Positions 52,073 through 59,249 of a stretch of DNA of 64,000 nt are shown piece by piece. Source of the DNA: Bacteroidaceae bacterium. GTDB taxonomy: Bacteria; Bacteroidota; Bacteroidia; Bacteroidales; Bacteroidaceae. The notes beneath the pieces are model-generated. The model saw nothing but the letters and a program-made list of their open reading frames with translations, searched no databases and was not told the DNA's origin. Where the stretch lies: the NCBI GenBank assembly GCA_017560125.1, contig JAFYOS010000018.1, forward strand, positions 62,001 to 126,000, written 5' to 3'. Made by a program: the position numbers and the translations under genes. Position 1 is the first letter of the stretch; each line of letters starts with the position of its first letter.

Positions 52073-52429
52073 ATGCAAGAAAAAACTTTATCATTTGAGC
52101 AGCTACCGGAGCTCATTCAAAATCTGGTAGAGAGAATCGAAGCACTCAAAAAGGCAGTTCGCGAGAAGCAGCAACCACAGCCACTCGAAGGGGAGCTGAT
52201 GAGTGTAGAGGATGTTTGCAAGCTACTTGGCAAATCCAAATCTGCGGTGTACCGGACGGTGAGGTGTCACGACATTCCGTTTATCCGCCAGGGTAACCGA
52301 TTGTATTTCGATCGACCGACTATCAAGAAGTGGCTCGAGAAGAAACAAAATATCGAGTGCATCACCAATATGGAGGAGTTCGAGAAGTTTATGACTCCCG
52401 ACCCGTGGCGTTATAGAAATCGACGCTAG
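52073..52429 (+). CDS. Excisionase-family helix-turn-helix DNA-binding protein
   Basis: 118 residues. After an N-terminal helix (QLPELIQNLVERIEALKKA) comes the HTH_17 MerR-like domain, MSVEDVCKLLGKSKSAVYRT with FIRQGNRLYFDRPTIKKWLEKK. Proteins of this form occur near integrases of Bacteroides mobilizable and conjugative elements, where they act in excision or copy control. No integrase is present here. It lies beside the phased repeats, which may be its sites (inference). Confidence 0.8.
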   Translation: MQEKTLSFEQLPELIQNLVERIEALKKAVREKQQPQPLEGELMSVEDVCKLLGKSKSAVYRTVRCHDIPFIRQGNRLYFDRPTIKKWLEKKQNIECITNMEEFEKFMTPDPWRYRNRR

Positions 52430-52511: not shown

Positions 52512-53264
52512 CTATATAGCCCTTCTTCGCTGAATGTCGTTGATAAAATTTGCAAGGTCATCGCAACCTATATGGTTCTTATGTATAACCCTATGACAAT
52601 TAGGACAAACAGGGAGTAGATTTTCAAGAGCTCTTGCTACTTGTTGTTCGAAGGAATCGTCTTGATACTGAAAGATAGGTTTTTTGTGATGTATTTCTAT
52701 ACAATTCTTTCCATAGACATCACCATAGTAGGTCGGAAAATTAAATCCACAACAGTTACAATGTATCTCATTATTTCGAGAAAAATGTTCAATGGCGATT
52801 GATCTTAATTTATTGGAACGCTCACGAACTTGAACATTTTTAGTAACTAATCGCCCCTCTGATACAAATTCCTCTAATGGCAGTAACATTCTATTACCAG
52901 CAGCTGAAATATCATCTATTGCATTTTTTACATCTTCATAATTAAAATCTTCATTAAACAAATAAGATAAAGCATCTATATGAGTTAAAACGAACGTCTC
53001 CCCAAGAGGTGTGATTTTAAAACCATCGTCAAAATTATCAGCATATCCTTGTCTTTGAAGGGTGTCATGACTCTTAAGATTTCTTACTTTTTGGGAGAAA
53101 TAAGTATCTGCTCGTCCAGCAAGTATATCTGCATCTTGACCTGTAGGATGCATTACTTCAGTTAATTGGGTAATTAAATCGCTAGTGCTAACAAAACCAT
53201 TTTCAGATTTCGAAAGTAAATATAATGCTGGTAAAACTAATTGACTTTCAGTAATACGTGCCAT
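52512..53264 (-). CDS. HNH endonuclease (probable restriction enzyme)
   Basis: 250 residues. The N-terminal 140 residues look like a winged-helix restriction-associated domain (LVLPALYLLSKSENGFVSTSDLI). The C-terminal HNH module has CNCCGF, IEIHHKKPI, LLPVCPNCHRVIH: two CxxC pairs binding zinc and the catalytic His pair. It is the third gene of a restriction operon, 5 bp after the dual methyltransferase, and should cut DNA that the methyltransferases leave unprotected. The recognition sequence is unknown. Confidence 0.85.
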   Translation of the reverse strand: MARITESQLVLPALYLLSKSENGFVSTSDLITQLTEVMHPTGQDADILAGRADTYFSQKVRNLKSHDTLQRQGYADNFDDGFKITPLGETFVLTHIDALSYLFNEDFNYEDVKNAIDDISAAGNRMLLPLEEFVSEGRLVTKNVQVRERSNKLRSIAIEHFSRNNEIHCNCCGFNFPTYYGDVYGKNCIEIHHKKPIFQYQDDSFEQQVARALENLLPVCPNCHRVIHKNHIGCDDLANFINDIQRRRAI

Positions 53265-53269
53265 AACAA

Positions 53270-55273
53270 TTAATAATTAGTTATTAGTAAATGAGTAACT
53301 TTTTTATCATTCCTATTCATGAAACTTACAAGATACTCCTTGTCGAAAGTTCGGATATTTATACCCTCTTTGTTGTACAAATCATATATAAAATCCGTAT
53401 TCTTTATAATCAACATCCACTTAGCTTTACACTCGTTAATCATGAAATTTGCAAGTCTTTCATGGTCCGCTTTTGAGAATGCATTCTGTGCATATGTGCT
53501 AAATTCACTATCATATGGGGGGTCAAGGAATACAAAATCACTTTCACTAAGTTGCATTTCTCTAAGGAATACCTCAAAATCGAGATTATATATATGGGTA
53601 TCTGCAAAATGGCTGAGCAATGGCATTGAGCGGTAATAGTTGAGCTTTTTTGACATCAGTTTGCTGTTGTATGCAATACCTCCATACGGAACATTAAAAT
53701 CTCCTTTACTACTATATCGAAACATACCACTATAAGCATAGTTGCGCATAAAGAAAAATAATGCACAATGTAAAGCTTTATCACACTTTGTAATGCTAGC
53801 ATCATTATAAAGATGACGATAATTCATATACACAGCACTCTTTATAGCTGTCTCTATATTGTCTAATAAATCACTATCAGGCAAAACATGTTTTTTGATT
53901 TCAAGCTCACGCATTCTTTGCATCTTTCGAAATAGGTTTGTTTCCATTTCTTTAAGAAGAATACATGTGTGCGAAAAAAATGATTTTCCAATGATGTTAA
54001 GAATATCATTTTTTTTATCCTTACAAAATTGACAAATATGCGATTTTAGCTCTTCCTTGCTAATTTTTTCATTCCGATATTGCAAGTAAAGATCGACAAG
54101 TATCTTGTTTTTATTAAAGAATTTAAGAGCGTTGTTCCACGATTTGTCGATTAGCTCTACATAACGGAAGAATGATTTATCAGACGTAGCGATGTAATTA
54201 TACAACAAAACTAGTTCAGATGAAAAGTCATTAATATAATACTCACTCGCTTGTACTGCCATAAATACAGAGCCTCCTCCAACAAAAGGCTCAAAATATC
54301 TATTAAATTTGGGAAGGTTTGGCAATATGTATTTTAGTTCTTTTTCTTTACCTCCCGGCCATTTAATTATAGGCTGTAATCCTGTGGGTGTATTTTGACT
54401 ATCTCTCATTATCGTTTCTTTTGCATTGAAGAATTCCTCAAGTTCGCAAAATGCTGTATTGTATGAAACTGCAACATCGCAAACTATCGAAGAATTCACT
54501 TCGTTATCAGATGTGTTATACCTATCTGGATTTGACACCTGTTGTGAATATGGGTTGGTTTGTAATATGGTATCTATTCTTTTCTTTGCTGCATTAAAAT
54601 AATTTTCGTCGATTTCAACCCCGATAAATCTCCTATCAAGACTTAATGCTGCAACACCCATTGACCCCACTCCCATAAATGGATCAAAAATGATATCGTT
54701 TTTATTTGTTGCAATTTCAATCATCTTCTTCAAAATTGCAACAGGTTTCTGTGCGGGATGCTTTGGATCACTTAGCCTCTCTGGACGCATACAAATTGGA
54801 CTCTCAATAAAATTATGCATTTCTGACTGAGAAATAAAGTTCCATGTATGTTTTTTATTCCAGCAAGTGAAAATCATCTCGCAACTATTCAAAAATCCCG
54901 CTTTAAATATTTTAGGAGCAGGATTAGTTTTGTGCCAGACCATAAAATTGGATGTATCAAACTTATGATCAAGACAATTATACCATCTACCTAGTTGGTT
55001 GTAAGATGTAAAAATAAATAGATTTCCAGTTGGCTTGAGTATCCTTATAAATTCATCAGCCCACTCTTCAGGATTAAAATCAATCATATCCCATTCTGCT
55101 ACATCATTATTCATAGCAGAACGACCTGGCAATGGTATGTTGCCCGTTGAATGCTGTCCTAAATTATATGGAGGATCAGTGAGTATGAAATCGATAGAGT
55201 TATCTGGGATCCTTTTAATGATATCCTTGCTATCTCCTCGTAAAATGCACTTGCGCCAATTCGGATCTTTCAT
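53270..55273 (-). CDS. Fused pair of DNA methyltransferases (beta-class and Dam/D12 class)
   Basis: 667 residues. The first half (1-250) is a beta-class amino-methyltransferase: the catalytic TDPPYNLG (D33-Y36) precedes the SAM site DPFMGVGSMG (about 197-206). From about residue 290 a second enzyme begins, of the D12/Dam class: IIKWPGGKEKELKYIL, FEPFVGGGSVF (about 330) and FLDPPYDSEF (about 583). Both catalytic sites look intact, so both halves should methylate adenine (or N4-cytosine in the first). Two different methylases in one chain is expected for asymmetric type IIS-like sites. It overlaps the upstream nuclease gene by 1 bp (TAATG). Confidence 0.9.
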   Translation of the reverse strand: MKDPNWRKCILRGDSKDIIKRIPDNSIDFILTDPPYNLGQHSTGNIPLPGRSAMNNDVAEWDMIDFNPEEWADEFIRILKPTGNLFIFTSYNQLGRWYNCLDHKFDTSNFMVWHKTNPAPKIFKAGFLNSCEMIFTCWNKKHTWNFISQSEMHNFIESPICMRPERLSDPKHPAQKPVAILKKMIEIATNKNDIIFDPFMGVGSMGVAALSLDRRFIGVEIDENYFNAAKKRIDTILQTNPYSQQVSNPDRYNTSDNEVNSSIVCDVAVSYNTAFCELEEFFNAKETIMRDSQNTPTGLQPIIKWPGGKEKELKYILPNLPKFNRYFEPFVGGGSVFMAVQASEYYINDFSSELVLLYNYIATSDKSFFRYVELIDKSWNNALKFFNKNKILVDLYLQYRNEKISKEELKSHICQFCKDKKNDILNIIGKSFFSHTCILLKEMETNLFRKMQRMRELEIKKHVLPDSDLLDNIETAIKSAVYMNYRHLYNDASITKCDKALHCALFFFMRNYAYSGMFRYSSKGDFNVPYGGIAYNSKLMSKKLNYYRSMPLLSHFADTHIYNLDFEVFLREMQLSESDFVFLDPPYDSEFSTYAQNAFSKADHERLANFMINECKAKWMLIIKNTDFIYDLYNKEGINIRTFDKEYLVSFMNRNDKKVTHLLITNY

Positions 55274-56088
55274 TATGAGTTCGGCAGATAAGCTTTTTTA
55301 ATTTCATCCAAAGCCTCGTTGATATAATGAGCATTCTTATTATACTCGTCTATAACAATATCGTATCCACGATCCGACTTGCATACTAAATTCCAAAAGT
55401 CGCGACTTATACATAACTCTTCATTACAGAAGAATTGACGAACGCGGCCCTGAGTCCAAGGTTTGCCTTCTCCGTAACGATTGTATGCTGTCGCAAAAAG
55501 AATTTTTACTCTTTCCTCTCCAAGACGGTTGGTGAGAATGCAATATTGCTCAAGAAGTGCTTCCTTTTCAGAACGAGCCTTCTTATTATCCAAATCGCCT
55601 CCAATTTTTAGTTCTATAAGATAGTGCATACCTGTTTCTTCGTCAAGAAGATAATAATCGCTCTCATGACGTTTCGTCTCTGCAGTACCATGCATTTGAG
55701 AGATACCTTGATAATCCTCCAATTTTGGAGTTCTTCTATTATGACTTCTCTTATATTGCTCAAGGAGCTCGGCGATGTAATCCGTTTGTTCCTTGTAGAG
55801 TGTGCCCTCAACATGCTGACTAACCTCATAATGAAGTGATGCAATACTAATAGCCATACTTTCAAGCATATTGCCCAAAGAACTATCAAGAGAGCGGGCA
55901 AGTGCAGAATAGTATTGAATTTCCGGGCCAAGTGCAGCGATGAAGACGTTATGTTTCTTCATATTGATTACACCATTTTCATCATCTACTTCTGCGAGGT
56001 GACGAGTGGAGAAACCATTTGCATAAGATTTCACAGCGCTGCTCACAATGCTACGAATAGCTCTTTCTTTATCTATAGTTTGCGACAT
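55273..56088 (-). CDS. PD-(D/E)XK-type restriction endonuclease, TdeIII-like
   Basis: 271 residues. The likely catalytic core is D144 (ESDYYLLDEETG) and E159-L-K161 (HYLIELKIGGDL), with E76 a candidate upstream acid; this is the PD-(D/E)XK arrangement. General resemblance to the TdeIII restriction enzymes is my reading and not checked. It is the first gene of the operon with the dual methyltransferase and the HNH protein. A TATCTTTG box (56118-56111) precedes it by 23 bp. Confidence 0.65.
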   Translation of the reverse strand: MSQTIDKERAIRSIVSSAVKSYANGFSTRHLAEVDDENGVINMKKHNVFIAALGPEIQYYSALARSLDSSLGNMLESMAISIASLHYEVSQHVEGTLYKEQTDYIAELLEQYKRSHNRRTPKLEDYQGISQMHGTAETKRHESDYYLLDEETGMHYLIELKIGGDLDNKKARSEKEALLEQYCILTNRLGEERVKILFATAYNRYGEGKPWTQGRVRQFFCNEELCISRDFWNLVCKSDRGYDIVIDEYNKNAHYINEALDEIKKAYLPNS

Positions 56089-56149: not shown

Positions 56150-57880
56150 CTACATTGCTCTACCCAGTATTTCTTTATAATATATTTCTGCCAATTCTTC
56201 TGCTCGTGTAGTTACTGCATTTTCATCCCAATTATCGTGGTTGTCAATAAATTCTTTTACCCATTTGTAATTAGATTCTTCATATATCGGTTTCTTTAAC
56301 ACATATGTTTCATTATTAGCCTTAACATTTATATCCCTTTCAAGAAGAATAAGATTTCCTATATTTAGTGAAAGTCCTTCTGTTTCAGGCAATATATGTT
56401 CTACTGAGCCATTATCATCAAACAACTCTTTTTTTTCAAAAAGACACATAAGTTTATTGAGAGCATATTTTGTTTTCATATTCGAAGGATTCTCTTTTTT
56501 CGAGTAAGTAAGGGCTGTAAACTTGGTTTTAAAATCTATATATGATGGATAATGCGGTTCTAAGTTATTCTTTAAATCCGAAACAGCTTTTTCAGAATCA
56601 TGTTGGTTTTGCGAGTTTCTCAATTTAATCGCAAAAGAAGAATAATGCTTATCAACTCTATTTGTTCCCTTAGACAAGATTGAAGTGTATGCAAAATGAA
56701 AATTTTCTACATACAGTACAATGTCTTTGAATGTCTTCATATTGATTACTCTTCGCTCTTTTGCATCCAATAAAGCAAGAAGAGGTATACGAATATTTAC
56801 AATATTAAATATTTTATTGAACACATCAAGACTTTGAACAAACCAATAGTATTCTTTCTTATTGTTGTAATCCTGTCGTTTCGGAGACACAATCTTTCTA
56901 TATAGAACTGCATTATACTCTAAATCTTTTATAAATTTATTATATTCAGACCTTTTTATCTCTTTTTTAAATTTATCATATAAATTTGCCTTGGTAACTG
57001 ATTTATATTTAGAAGAAAAATAATGTCTTAAAAAGGTTGCAAATCCTATACCTTCATCACAATCTTCCAGGTGATCGTGAATTTTATTCCACTTATCTAG
57101 TGCAAAATCTGCCGGCTCTATACTATCTAATTCCTCAAATACTTTATTCTTTATCATATCTACATTAGATAGCCCCTTTCCTTTTGCATTTAATATTTCA
57201 AACAGTGTATTTGCCACTTTCTTTTCTTCAGTCAATATTTCAATTACTGTTGCAGACAATACTTGATCTCTAATACCTTTAAGAAGGTCTATGTATGAAA
57301 TGCCGTCGCAATCTTTTCCCGTTTTTTTCTGGAATAATGTGCGTAAATTATCTTCTTGAAGATTCTTCTCAAAAAACTCATATGTCGTCTTAATATTTAT
57401 TTCCTCTTCTGACTCAGGCTCGTCTACATCAGCCTTATCCATAGATTGAATATAAAACGAGAAATAAGGATAACTAGATACTGTTTTTAATACACGCATA
57501 TCTTCACCATCATTATTCTTTGTCATAATATATTGGAACATAGAATCAGAGAGAGCTTGTTGTCCCAATTTCTTAAACAAATGAGCAATAACCGAAAAGA
57601 GGATTGTTACAGTTGTTAATCTTTGCTGACCATCTACAACATAAACAGGATCTTTTGTTGGCTTATCTTTATCTCCAACAAAAAGCATTGTCCCCATAAA
57701 GTACTGGGTTGTTTCAAGGTTGTCATCATTTACATTTACATTGGAAATCATATCCTCTAGAAACTCCTTATAATGTTTCTTTTCCCAAGAATACTCTCTC
57801 TGGAATCTAGGAATTTCATATTGTTTATTTTTTATATTGAGAATACTTCCTATTGTACTCTCTCGTGGGGTCATCTTCAT
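56150..57880 (-). CDS. DUF262/DUF1524 protein, GmrSD-like restriction factor
   Basis: 576 residues. The DUF262 nucleotide-binding signature is VVDGQQRLTT (D83 to T90) with YEIPRFQREYSWEKKHY upstream. Near residue 490 the DUF1524 HNH-like motif SVEHILPE is followed by IGNLILLERDIN. This is the joined GmrS-GmrD form, known in type IV restriction against modified phage DNA (glucosylated hydroxymethylcytosine) and in related defences. It sits 61 bp beyond the restriction operon's promoter and 43 bp after the AAA gene, as expected in a defence island. The target is unknown. Confidence 0.88.
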   Translation of the reverse strand: MKMTPRESTIGSILNIKNKQYEIPRFQREYSWEKKHYKEFLEDMISNVNVNDDNLETTQYFMGTMLFVGDKDKPTKDPVYVVDGQQRLTTVTILFSVIAHLFKKLGQQALSDSMFQYIMTKNNDGEDMRVLKTVSSYPYFSFYIQSMDKADVDEPESEEEINIKTTYEFFEKNLQEDNLRTLFQKKTGKDCDGISYIDLLKGIRDQVLSATVIEILTEEKKVANTLFEILNAKGKGLSNVDMIKNKVFEELDSIEPADFALDKWNKIHDHLEDCDEGIGFATFLRHYFSSKYKSVTKANLYDKFKKEIKRSEYNKFIKDLEYNAVLYRKIVSPKRQDYNNKKEYYWFVQSLDVFNKIFNIVNIRIPLLALLDAKERRVINMKTFKDIVLYVENFHFAYTSILSKGTNRVDKHYSSFAIKLRNSQNQHDSEKAVSDLKNNLEPHYPSYIDFKTKFTALTYSKKENPSNMKTKYALNKLMCLFEKKELFDDNGSVEHILPETEGLSLNIGNLILLERDINVKANNETYVLKKPIYEESNYKWVKEFIDNHDNWDENAVTTRAEELAEIYYKEILGRAM

Positions 57881-57923: not shown

Positions 57924-59249
57924 TTAATCTTTCAAGCATCCGAGCGGTATCACCTTTACGCCATCCTCGCGAGTATAGGCAAACTCTCCACCGGTCAGCA
58001 CAATCAACAGGTCTGGTTCACGGAGAGGCATCTGCTTCTCGGTTTTATTGCGCTCACGAATAAGTTCTTGGAGCTGTAGTAGATGTGTTGCTCCCTCATC
58101 AATATCTCGGCTACCCAACTTACACTCAATAAGTGCATATCGCTGATCATCAAGATGAAGAACAATATCAGCCTCCAAGCCATATCTATCATGGTAGTAT
58201 GACACTCTACCACCCATAGCCTGTGAATATACCCTCAAATCACGAATACACATACACTCGAAAATAAAACCAAAGGTTTTCAAGTCAAGTTCAAGCGATT
58301 TTGGGGATGCACCCATTGCTGCCACAGCGATAGATGGATCAATGAAGCACCTCTTCTTGCCCGAACGAATAGCAGTTGCCGAACGAATAGCCGGACACCA
58401 CGCATCGATATCCTCAAGAACAAATAGGCGTTTTAATGCATCAACATACTCATCAAAGGTTGCTTGCACAGTTGTCTCCATCTCGACTTTAACATCAGCA
58501 AGCATTGCCGTCTTCTTCGCCAGTGTGCATAGGTTACGAGCATAGGAACGCAAAATGAGTCTTGCAAGTTCCGGATTACGTTGCACTCCATCCACTCGCG
58601 AAATATCATCTTCGCACACCTTATTGAGATAATCTTTGGCAATAAGCAATTGTGCTTTTTCGCTTTTTACATTTAGCGAATCTGGCCAACCACCTCTACA
58701 CGCCAACATTATCAACTCCTCAATCGATAGTTTTGATGTGATACCATCAATGTCCAACGACTTATTGTCAAACAATTCGAGAAAAGATATTTCACCTGAT
58801 GACTCTTTCGACTCATAAAGGCTCATCGGATACATCGTCATAGTCGCAATCCTACCAGTGCCCGTATGCATTTGTCTTTGTTCCTCGGGAGTATCCTCAT
58901 CGCCATTATTCTTTATTACGGTAGAGCCGGTAAGAATAAACTGACCTTTCAGCCCCCTTTGGTCAACGGCATTGCGTACAGCATCCCACAAAATAGGTAT
59001 ATCCTGCCACTCATCAATCAGTCGAGGTGTTTCTCCCTTCAACAGAATTGAGGGCTTTGTTCTTGCTGTAGCCAAATAACCTTCGCGTTTATCAGGGTCC
59101 TGCAATTTGATAAAACTTTTGGCTTGTTGTTCCGCAGTAGTGGTCTTACCACACCATTTGGGGCCCTTTATTTGCACAGCTCCGAAAGCCTCTAATCTCA
59201 AAGCTAGTTCGTCGTCTGCTATTCTACTTAAATACTCCTTATCAGCCAT
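57924..59249 (-). CDS. AAA_14/DUF4143 ATPase
   Basis: 441 residues. Walker A GPKWCGKTTT (29-38), Walker B PRLIDEWQ (D79, E80), then sensor-like FILTGSTVI. The C-terminal DUF4143 part ends with GLEADIVLHLDDQRYALIECKLG, whose D...E-x-K pattern resembles a PD-(D/E)XK nuclease fold. Such ATPases are widespread in Bacteroidetes, often in accessory regions; their role is not settled. It begins at a good promoter (59278-59307) and may be transcribed with the DUF262 gene. Confidence 0.85.
   Translation of the reverse strand: MADKEYLSRIADDELALRLEAFGAVQIKGPKWCGKTTTAEQQAKSFIKLQDPDKREGYLATARTKPSILLKGETPRLIDEWQDIPILWDAVRNAVDQRGLKGQFILTGSTVIKNNGDEDTPEEQRQMHTGTGRIATMTMYPMSLYESKESSGEISFLELFDNKSLDIDGITSKLSIEELIMLACRGGWPDSLNVKSEKAQLLIAKDYLNKVCEDDISRVDGVQRNPELARLILRSYARNLCTLAKKTAMLADVKVEMETTVQATFDEYVDALKRLFVLEDIDAWCPAIRSATAIRSGKKRCFIDPSIAVAAMGASPKSLELDLKTFGFIFECMCIRDLRVYSQAMGGRVSYYHDRYGLEADIVLHLDDQRYALIECKLGSRDIDEGATHLLQLQELIRERNKTEKQMPLREPDLLIVLTGGEFAYTREDGVKVIPLGCLKD

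Follow-up and report, generated by a model that had tools for sequence, protein, structure and literature searches.

The window analysed here, 64,000 nucleotides of Bacteroidaceae contig JAFYOS010000018.1 (positions 62,001 to 126,000), carries a three-gene restriction-modification (R-M) operon that encodes a PD-(D/E)XK restriction endonuclease of the TdeIII family, a fusion of a beta-class with a D12 (alpha-class) adenine methyltransferase, and a protein that joins a winged helix-turn-helix (wHTH) domain to an HNH nuclease domain. The explanation that we favour, with a little more than even confidence, is that a single D12 methyltransferase is shared by two restriction enzymes that are independent and differ in fold. 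The fused enzyme would methylate the host's own sites and the TdeIII enzyme would cleave sites left unmodified, while the winged helix of the third protein would read the same or an overlapping site and put the HNH nuclease there if it is unmethylated, D12 methylation thus keeping both nucleases from the host's sites. A phage protein that blocks one nuclease fold would then leave the other fold unblocked, which is where a benefit against phages may lie.

Three open reading frames on the minus strand fill window positions 52512–56088 exactly (Table 1); the first two overlap by a single base (55273) and a gap of 5 bp separates the second from the third. The first product matches RE_TdeIII (PF09520; 3.7e-37, 128.7 bits against a cut-off of 27.2). 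The second contains N6_N4_Mtase at residues 27–231 (3.3e-38) and MethyltransfD12 (1.3e-39), and the nearest solved relatives of its halves are 5hek, annotated as DpnA (1.8e-36), for the beta half and 2dpm, DpnII methyltransferase 1 (3.4e-26), for the D12 half. The third matches HNH (PF01844; 7.7e-05, 23.2 bits against a cut-off of 21.4), with the HNH domain of McrA (6ghc, 1e-05) as the nearest solved HNH in a profile search. Reading frames and Pfam matches bear out a first-pass annotation that had described two nuclease classes and a beta/D12 fusion in a tight operon. Its HNH nuclease holds as to the HNH domain and not as a bare nuclease: the first ~100 residues form an Mrr_N-like winged helix. 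The window protein itself has no Pfam match over this helix, which is assigned through a homologue with the same N-terminus (locus L073), where Mrr_N (PF14338) is above cut-off (5.2e-08, 33.4 bits); among 14 aligned HNH members, Mrr_N is found in three at E-values up to 0.1, the best being 0.00036. As to whether the trio is already catalogued as a standard type IIS system, which that annotation had named as a refutation, no PADLOC model matches the TdeIII enzyme, methyltransferase models match the fusion, and the only match of the HNH protein is the generic type IV model mREase_IV.

Table 1. Features of the operon in window coordinates.
Feature	Position	Strand	Basis
RE_TdeIII-family PD-(D/E)XK restriction endonuclease (R), 271 aa, gene 1 of the operon	55273..56088	-	Pfam PF09520
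Beta-class + D12 (alpha-class) adenine methyltransferase fusion (M), 667 aa	53270..55273	-	Pfam
Beta half of M, ~residues 1-250	54524..55273	-	Pfam N6_N4_Mtase
D12 half of M, ~residues 291-667	53270..54403	-	Pfam MethyltransfD12
wHTH-HNH protein, 250 aa, predicted second nuclease	52512..53264	-	Pfam HNH, alignment
Mrr_N-like N-terminal winged helix, residues 1-110	52935..53264	-	Pfam match of a homologue
HNH core, residues 169-229, Cys4 + IEIHH..N..H motif	52578..52760	-	Pfam, alignment

A panel of TdeIII loci was assembled by scanning a genome collection with a three-protein TdeIII alignment and taking the best 80 of 125 relatives, which come from Bacteroidota, Spirochaetota, Campylobacterota, candidate-phyla bacteria, archaea and others. 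Panel genes are longest-reading-frame picks, several contigs are short so that contig ends hide some genes, and a gene was counted as present when it lies on the same strand as the TdeIII gene and no more than three genes before or five genes after it. Both methyltransferases accompany TdeIII in 70 of the 80 loci, fused in 31 and as separate genes in 39; two loci have D12 only, three beta only and five neither. The fused forms belong to Bacteroidales-type records, together with L035, which is labelled only as a bacterium. Both methyltransferases without any nearby wHTH gene are found in 49 of the 80, some of these contigs ending soon after. Because TdeIII and its methyltransferases mostly occur without a wHTH gene, the combination of TdeIII and D12, in most cases together with beta, resembles a whole R-M unit. 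The Psychrobacter plasmid pA3H9 carries TdeIII, D12 and a wHTH-NOV_C (DUF3883) protein, and the beta gene is absent. The complete trio of TdeIII, fused methyltransferase and HNH gene recurs in the same order in 13 of the 80 loci (three near-identical pairs, L011/L013, L027/L028 and L021/L056, included), so that the arrangement is not due to chance. No TdeIII match was found in phage records, and viral-contig scans with a single TdeIII or HNH-protein sequence gave none that was confirmed.

Active-site residues are conserved in both nucleases. D144, E159 and K161 of the TdeIII enzyme are invariant in 46 of 46 aligned proteins (one from the window, one from pA3H9 and 44 from the 80 panel loci, with the shortened L085 frame excluded). 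Pfam HNH is found in all 14 aligned members, the window counted, and H192, H193, N215, C169, C172, C220 and C223 are invariant among them. A degenerate second nuclease, which the first-pass annotation had considered, was therefore rejected for the aligned sets, the catalytic residues being invariant; the damage that does occur lies elsewhere and in single loci, with a shortened TdeIII frame in L085, both methyltransferases in pieces in L065, beta in two frames in L040 and an HNH gene without ~30 N-terminal residues in L053. DPPY-type and PF.GGG motifs are present in all 68 panel D12 proteins long enough to score, and 5 of 70 panel beta proteins miss the glycine-loop pattern with DPPY retained. 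The D12 adenine methyltransferase beside the HNH gene looks active from its sequence.

Two further features of the TdeIII loci were seen. At ~7100–8810 of L011 a tandem pair of TdeIII-like genes, 74% and 86% identical to that of the window, precedes one fused methyltransferase and a wHTH-HNH gene. In one branch the TdeIII genes are followed by a protein of 241–244 aa (L046:826-1551, L048:8816-9541, L053:1955-2683, L086:9591-10325), with weak Forkhead and HARE-HTH matches in L048 and none in L086; beta and D12 relatives are absent near TdeIII in L046, L048 and L053.

The wHTH-HNH protein likewise occurs with a D12 methyltransferase and without TdeIII. A wHTH-HNH profile gave 18 matches against 393 genomes of the order, of which six cover the wHTH part (genomes G000, G410, G145, G292, G493 and G503) and 12 the generic HNH part only. 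In G145, G292 and G493 the wHTH-HNH gene adjoins a D12 gene 53–57% identical to the window D12 half, and the same pair is present in G776 (D12 48%) and in the viral-contig locus L176 (49%). D12 with wHTH-HNH, and with neither TdeIII nor an adjacent beta gene, is the content of five loci (L107, L108, L109, L125 and L176). Whole-genome searches found TdeIII in none of G145, G292, G493, G503 and G776, the same query finding G000 and G167. The D12 beside the HNH gene is the only D12 methyltransferase found in G145, G493 and G776 (G292 was not in this search); at 1e-10 no beta relative is found in G145 or G493, and weaker ones are found in G292, G503 and G776. In G503 the D12 gene stands with a wHTH-AAA gene (McrB-like, a weak match) and a DUF2357 + PDDEXK_7 (McrC-like) gene instead of HNH. 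The AAA_5 match of the wHTH-McrB-like gene of locus L110 is below cut-off (5.5e-04), and its partner carries DUF2357 + PDDEXK_7. In Monoglobales phage CHVD 5762, wHTH-HNH lies two genes from a D12 methyltransferase. Alignment-based scans of viral contigs did recover wHTH loci; in plasmids, tblastn with a single wHTH domain as query gave no match. The HNH query matched 193 plasmid records, mostly in the HNH part among the matches listed, and none was used; six of nine phage records match the HNH part only, and one is a second copy of a Zymomonas plasmid.

These gene contents bear directly on how the two nucleases relate. The first-pass annotation had proposed, as one of two options, that both nucleases act on one asymmetric site, each nicking one strand or one serving as a second layer, and had remarked on the pairing of two nucleases with two methylase halves. 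This could amount to one heteromeric enzyme in which each nuclease cuts, and each methylase half protects, one strand, and the tight operon with its two nucleases and two methyltransferase halves would suit it. Each nuclease occurs without the other, however, so that an obligate nicking pair is rejected on gene content, and beta is missing where D12 is present, in pA3H9 and beside D12 in the five HNH-only loci, so that a one-to-one pairing of nucleases with methylase halves is not supported; D12 is the common partner. We regard a heteromeric enzyme as very improbable. The annotation's other proposal, that two systems have merged, is the one that the comparison favours, given the 49 TdeIII loci with methyltransferases alone and the five with D12 and wHTH-HNH alone.

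On a tree of D12 sequences (80 rows), partners have been exchanged repeatedly. The HNH-only loci L107 and L109, together with L110, fall in a starred 41-row clade (support 99/97) with the window and TdeIII loci, and L108 and L125 branch outside it. Counted on 76 rows, with four duplicates left out, TdeIII presence requires at least six changes and wHTH presence at least 17. A single clade of the five TdeIII-less loci, entered as six rows since L110 and L094 are the same locus, is rejected by the approximately unbiased test (p 0.0003). Such patchy presence might be expected if the HNH gene were an unrelated mobile or homing-type passenger behind R-M genes, a reading to which we give almost no credence. 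The wHTH gene lies between methyltransferase genes in five of the 22 panel loci that have it (L067, L068, L072, L073 and L078), before the TdeIII gene in two (L036 and L037) and after it in 15, many of these genes sitting only a few bases from their neighbours, and wHTH-HNH pairs with D12 alone in the five loci above. One of the loci with the wHTH gene after TdeIII, L053, has no methyltransferase of this kind nearby. Distances between HNH parts correlate with those of D12 (Mantel r 0.80, 18 rows); the Mantel tests, here and below, show co-inheritance and do not discriminate function.

What follows the wHTH differs between loci. Among the 22 of the 80 TdeIII loci with a wHTH gene, it is joined to HNH in 16, to a HEPN-like domain in three, to NOV_C in two and to nothing in one, and a profile built from the Mrr_N-like N-termini also matches the N-termini of the three NOV_C proteins, which it did not include (1.7e-08 to 8.8e-08). 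The HEPN-like C-terminus of L067, L068 and L073 contains RHDLVHRNG, with RHDLVH in all three; no HEPN match is found in Pfam, NCBIfam or the PDB, so that the assignment rests on the motif, and PDB profile searches with TdeIII, the wHTH and the HEPN-like part gave no useful match. In L117, on a viral contig, wHTH-HNH adjoins an AlwI-family restriction enzyme (1.5e-55) and an N6_N4 methyltransferase, which makes a further R-M system where this extra nuclease accompanies an unrelated restriction enzyme. The wHTH probably recognises the site on behalf of an effector that can be exchanged, and the comparison suggests that the second nuclease is an interchangeable module, gained in some relatives and lost in others, whose effector varies.

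A constant wHTH with a varying effector (HNH, NOV_C, HEPN-like or none) would equally suit a second-layer guard, the chief rival to a shared D12 methyltransferase: the wHTH would sense or regulate the state of the R-M system or its sites, and failure or inhibition of restriction would release the joined domain as a damage effector, as with PrrC for EcoprrI. Other genes are in keeping with such a role. Directly after TdeIII operons that lack a wHTH gene there are AAA_13 genes of PrrC/RloC type (L062:3037-5379 and L070:3189-5405) or AAA_15 genes (L077:3044-4870 and L079:1964-3742, the latter with an OLD-type TOPRIM), a DUF3644 gene stands after the HNH gene in L021, and HEPN families in R-M operons are interpreted as second layers (PMC3710099). 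In the two-gene unit of D12 and wHTH-HNH, however, no other restriction enzyme of the system is seen that could be guarded, and the HEPN call goes back to the RHDLVHRNG motif. We consider a guard role unlikely, while giving it more weight than any other alternative for the third protein.

Under a shared D12 methyltransferase the wHTH would have to recognise unmethylated sites, and its neighbours are informative on this point. A comparison set was drawn from searches that did not use TdeIII; in 19 of its 23 wHTH records a DNA methyltransferase gene lies no more than three genes away. It is a D12 enzyme in eight (L107, L108, L109, L110, L121, L125, L134 and L176), a type III Mod in L126, an N6_N4 enzyme in L117 and a small NPP(Y/F) methyltransferase in nine viral contigs (L118, L119, L120, L122, L123, L124, L177, L179 and L180), of which that of L119 is confirmed (phrog_799, 7.3e-58) and the eight others were assigned by eye. 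The four without a methyltransferase are DinD fusions (L135, as annotated; L181, L182 and L183, by eye). According to PMC11037411, 87% of more than 1,000 winged-helix (wH) fusion nucleases surveyed lack a methyltransferase within three genes on either side and the class is regarded as modification-dependent, its authors reasoning that a wH enzyme not specific for modification should adjoin a protecting methyltransferase. Set against that figure, 19 of 23 with a methyltransferase suggests that the wHTH of the operon reads its site in a methylation-sensitive way. LlaJI, comparable with L110, offers a precedent: it restricts unmethylated DNA, and its specificity is set by the McrB-like subunit alone (PMC1459862).

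Two observations accompany this set. In the DinD or DinD-like proteins a wHTH of the same family is found at the C-terminal end, and in the nine viral contigs the wHTH is a solo protein of 102–116 aa (142 aa in L123), convergent with the small methyltransferase gene.

The wHTH-HNH protein might instead be a type IV enzyme that depends on N6-methyladenine (6mA), like HhiV4I or relatives of DpnI, and act against phages with adenine methylation of their own. Its wH-HNH architecture would fit, as would mREase_IV as its sole PADLOC match and McrA as the nearest solved HNH. This role is disfavoured because of the active-looking D12 adenine methyltransferase next door, beside which such an enzyme would be self-destructive unless the sequence contexts differ. 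Additionally, the wHTH profile has no DpnI match in the PDB (a comparison of sequence only), and the stand-alone placement of that class is not seen here, either in the operon or in the 19 of 23 records near a methyltransferase. We judge a 6mA-dependent enzyme improbable.

As to the target itself, the D12 half has ~98 residues more than DpnM between two aligned blocks, and its target may therefore be longer than GATC or different from it. The window D12 keeps a K, an R and a P that we take to be the GATC contacts in Dam. The stretch YSGMFRY...FNVPYGG, presumably the counterpart of Dam's DNA-reading hairpin, is nearly the same in the TdeIII-only, TdeIII + HNH, HNH-only and McrB rows. Site avoidance was dropped as a guide to the target: GATC occurs at 0.28 of expectation in G000 (129,483 sampled bases), a scarcity comparable to that in 20 genomes of the same genus that lack a TdeIII match (pooled 0.18, single samples 0.00–0.37), and in genomes with HNH and no TdeIII it stands at 0.55 (G145), 0.91 (G493) and 0.98 (G776). 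Site counts in small plasmids and in the window were uninformative. In the same 20 samples (L136–L155), CATG was at 0.00–0.09 of expectation in G002, G007, G008, G009, G012, G013 and G015, at 0.16 in G014 and at 0.54–0.88 in the other 12. L132 and L133 have D12 methyltransferases 36–37% identical to the window D12 half, and after each comes a protein of 204 aa that may be a further restriction enzyme, for which no Pfam or NCBIfam match was found in L133.

Several observations weigh against two restriction enzymes sharing one D12 methyltransferase. The hairpin stretch is also much alike in L121, L132 and L134, which have other partners, and is thus weak evidence for one target. D12 identity to the window is 48–57% in the HNH-only loci and 37–41% in L004, L072, L121 and L134, so that it would be unsafe to assume the same target throughout the wHTH systems. 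The tree program gives a long-branch warning for L107 and L109, and the correlation with D12 distances is weaker for the wHTH (Mantel r 0.47, 27 rows) than for TdeIII (0.81, 67 rows). The contigs with methyltransferase neighbours are partly related (L119, L120 and L122 are nearly the same) and eight of the enzymes were called by eye; the 19 of 23 are therefore not independent events and serve as a contrast, not a statistic. The wH-HNH and wH-GIY-YIG enzymes tested so far prefer methylated DNA and sense 6mA (PMC11037411). Finally, the same wHTH occurs alone (L078 and phage-type contigs) or with a HEPN-like domain, which suits a sensor or regulator equally.

A broader proposal, which we put forward tentatively and hold to be doubtful, is that the Mrr_N-like wHTH is a general partner of adenine methyltransferases that reads the state of their targets and is plugged into varied effectors (HNH, NOV_C PD-(D/E)XK, a McrBC-like motor, a HEPN-like RNase or, in phages, nothing), so that one mark would govern stacked defences.

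Next to the operon there is a small defence island on the minus strand, made up of a GmrSD/DUF262-type gene (56150–57880; PADLOC HEC-06, 2.3e-66), 61 bp upstream of the TdeIII gene, and beyond it an AAA_14/DUF4143 gene (57924–59249; PADLOC PDC-S01). Just past the other end of the operon lies an excisionase-type HTH_17 gene on the plus strand (52073–52429; a weak MAD1 match), which may lie at the border of a mobile insertion.

If a shared D12 methyltransferase is the correct explanation, two restriction enzymes with unrelated folds depend on a single protective methylase, and phages should find inhibition or escape harder. The exchange of R-M nucleases without a lethal step would also be easier to explain, since the methylase stays while nucleases come and go, and the pair of D12 and wHTH-HNH is small enough for a laboratory test of unrelated nucleases sharing one methylation mark. 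Taken one by one, R-M operons with two layers, enzymes of the wH-HNH type and type II systems resembling McrBC are already known; no paper describing TdeIII operons, or a methyltransferase shared between two dissimilar restriction enzymes, was found in a search outside which lay REBASE and most subscription literature.

Among known systems, the DpnII type has a D12 enzyme (DpnM), a beta enzyme (DpnA) and one restriction enzyme. The window operon resembles it in having one D12 and one beta adenine methyltransferase, whose nearest solved relatives are 2dpm and DpnA-annotated chains, and differs in that these are fused, the restriction enzyme is of another family, a second nuclease is present and the D12 half is longer. 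With type II systems of the TdeIII family (PF09520) it shares the restriction enzyme and the adjacent methyltransferase genes, to which it adds the wHTH-HNH enzyme and the fusion. We take TDE0911 to be TdeIII and GGNCC to be its site, which would not suit adenine methyltransferases. In the accessible part of PMC8265222, TDE0909/TDE0911 are mentioned only in passing. AlwI, a type IIS enzyme (GGATC), also has two methyltransferases in one chain, and L117 combines RE_AlwI, a methyltransferase and wHTH-HNH; the window restriction enzyme is not AlwI-like, however, and the joined methyltransferases of AlwI act on the two strands of a single asymmetric site (PMC4081073). LlaJI, a type II system with McrBC-like restriction subunits, likewise restricts unmodified DNA through a site-reading N-terminus joined to an effector (PMC1459862), and L110 carries the corresponding wHTH-McrB-like and McrC-like genes. 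LlaJI has 5-methylcytosine methyltransferases and a B3 reader domain (PMC12707154), whereas the window operon uses HNH and lacks the McrB-like GTPase and McrC-like nuclease. PrrC with EcoprrI and the HEPN proteins of R-M operons (PMC3710099) are alike in multi-layer defence with an accessory effector in the R-M operon, whereas the effector of the window is HNH and HEPN-like domains are confined to the relatives L067, L068 and L073. The wH fusion modification-dependent endonucleases come close in architecture, with a winged helix joined to HNH or other nucleases and with domain swapping; they mostly lack a nearby methyltransferase and those tested read G6mATC (PMC11037411), whereas proteins of the window type adjoin methyltransferases and their wHTH has no sequence match to DpnI.

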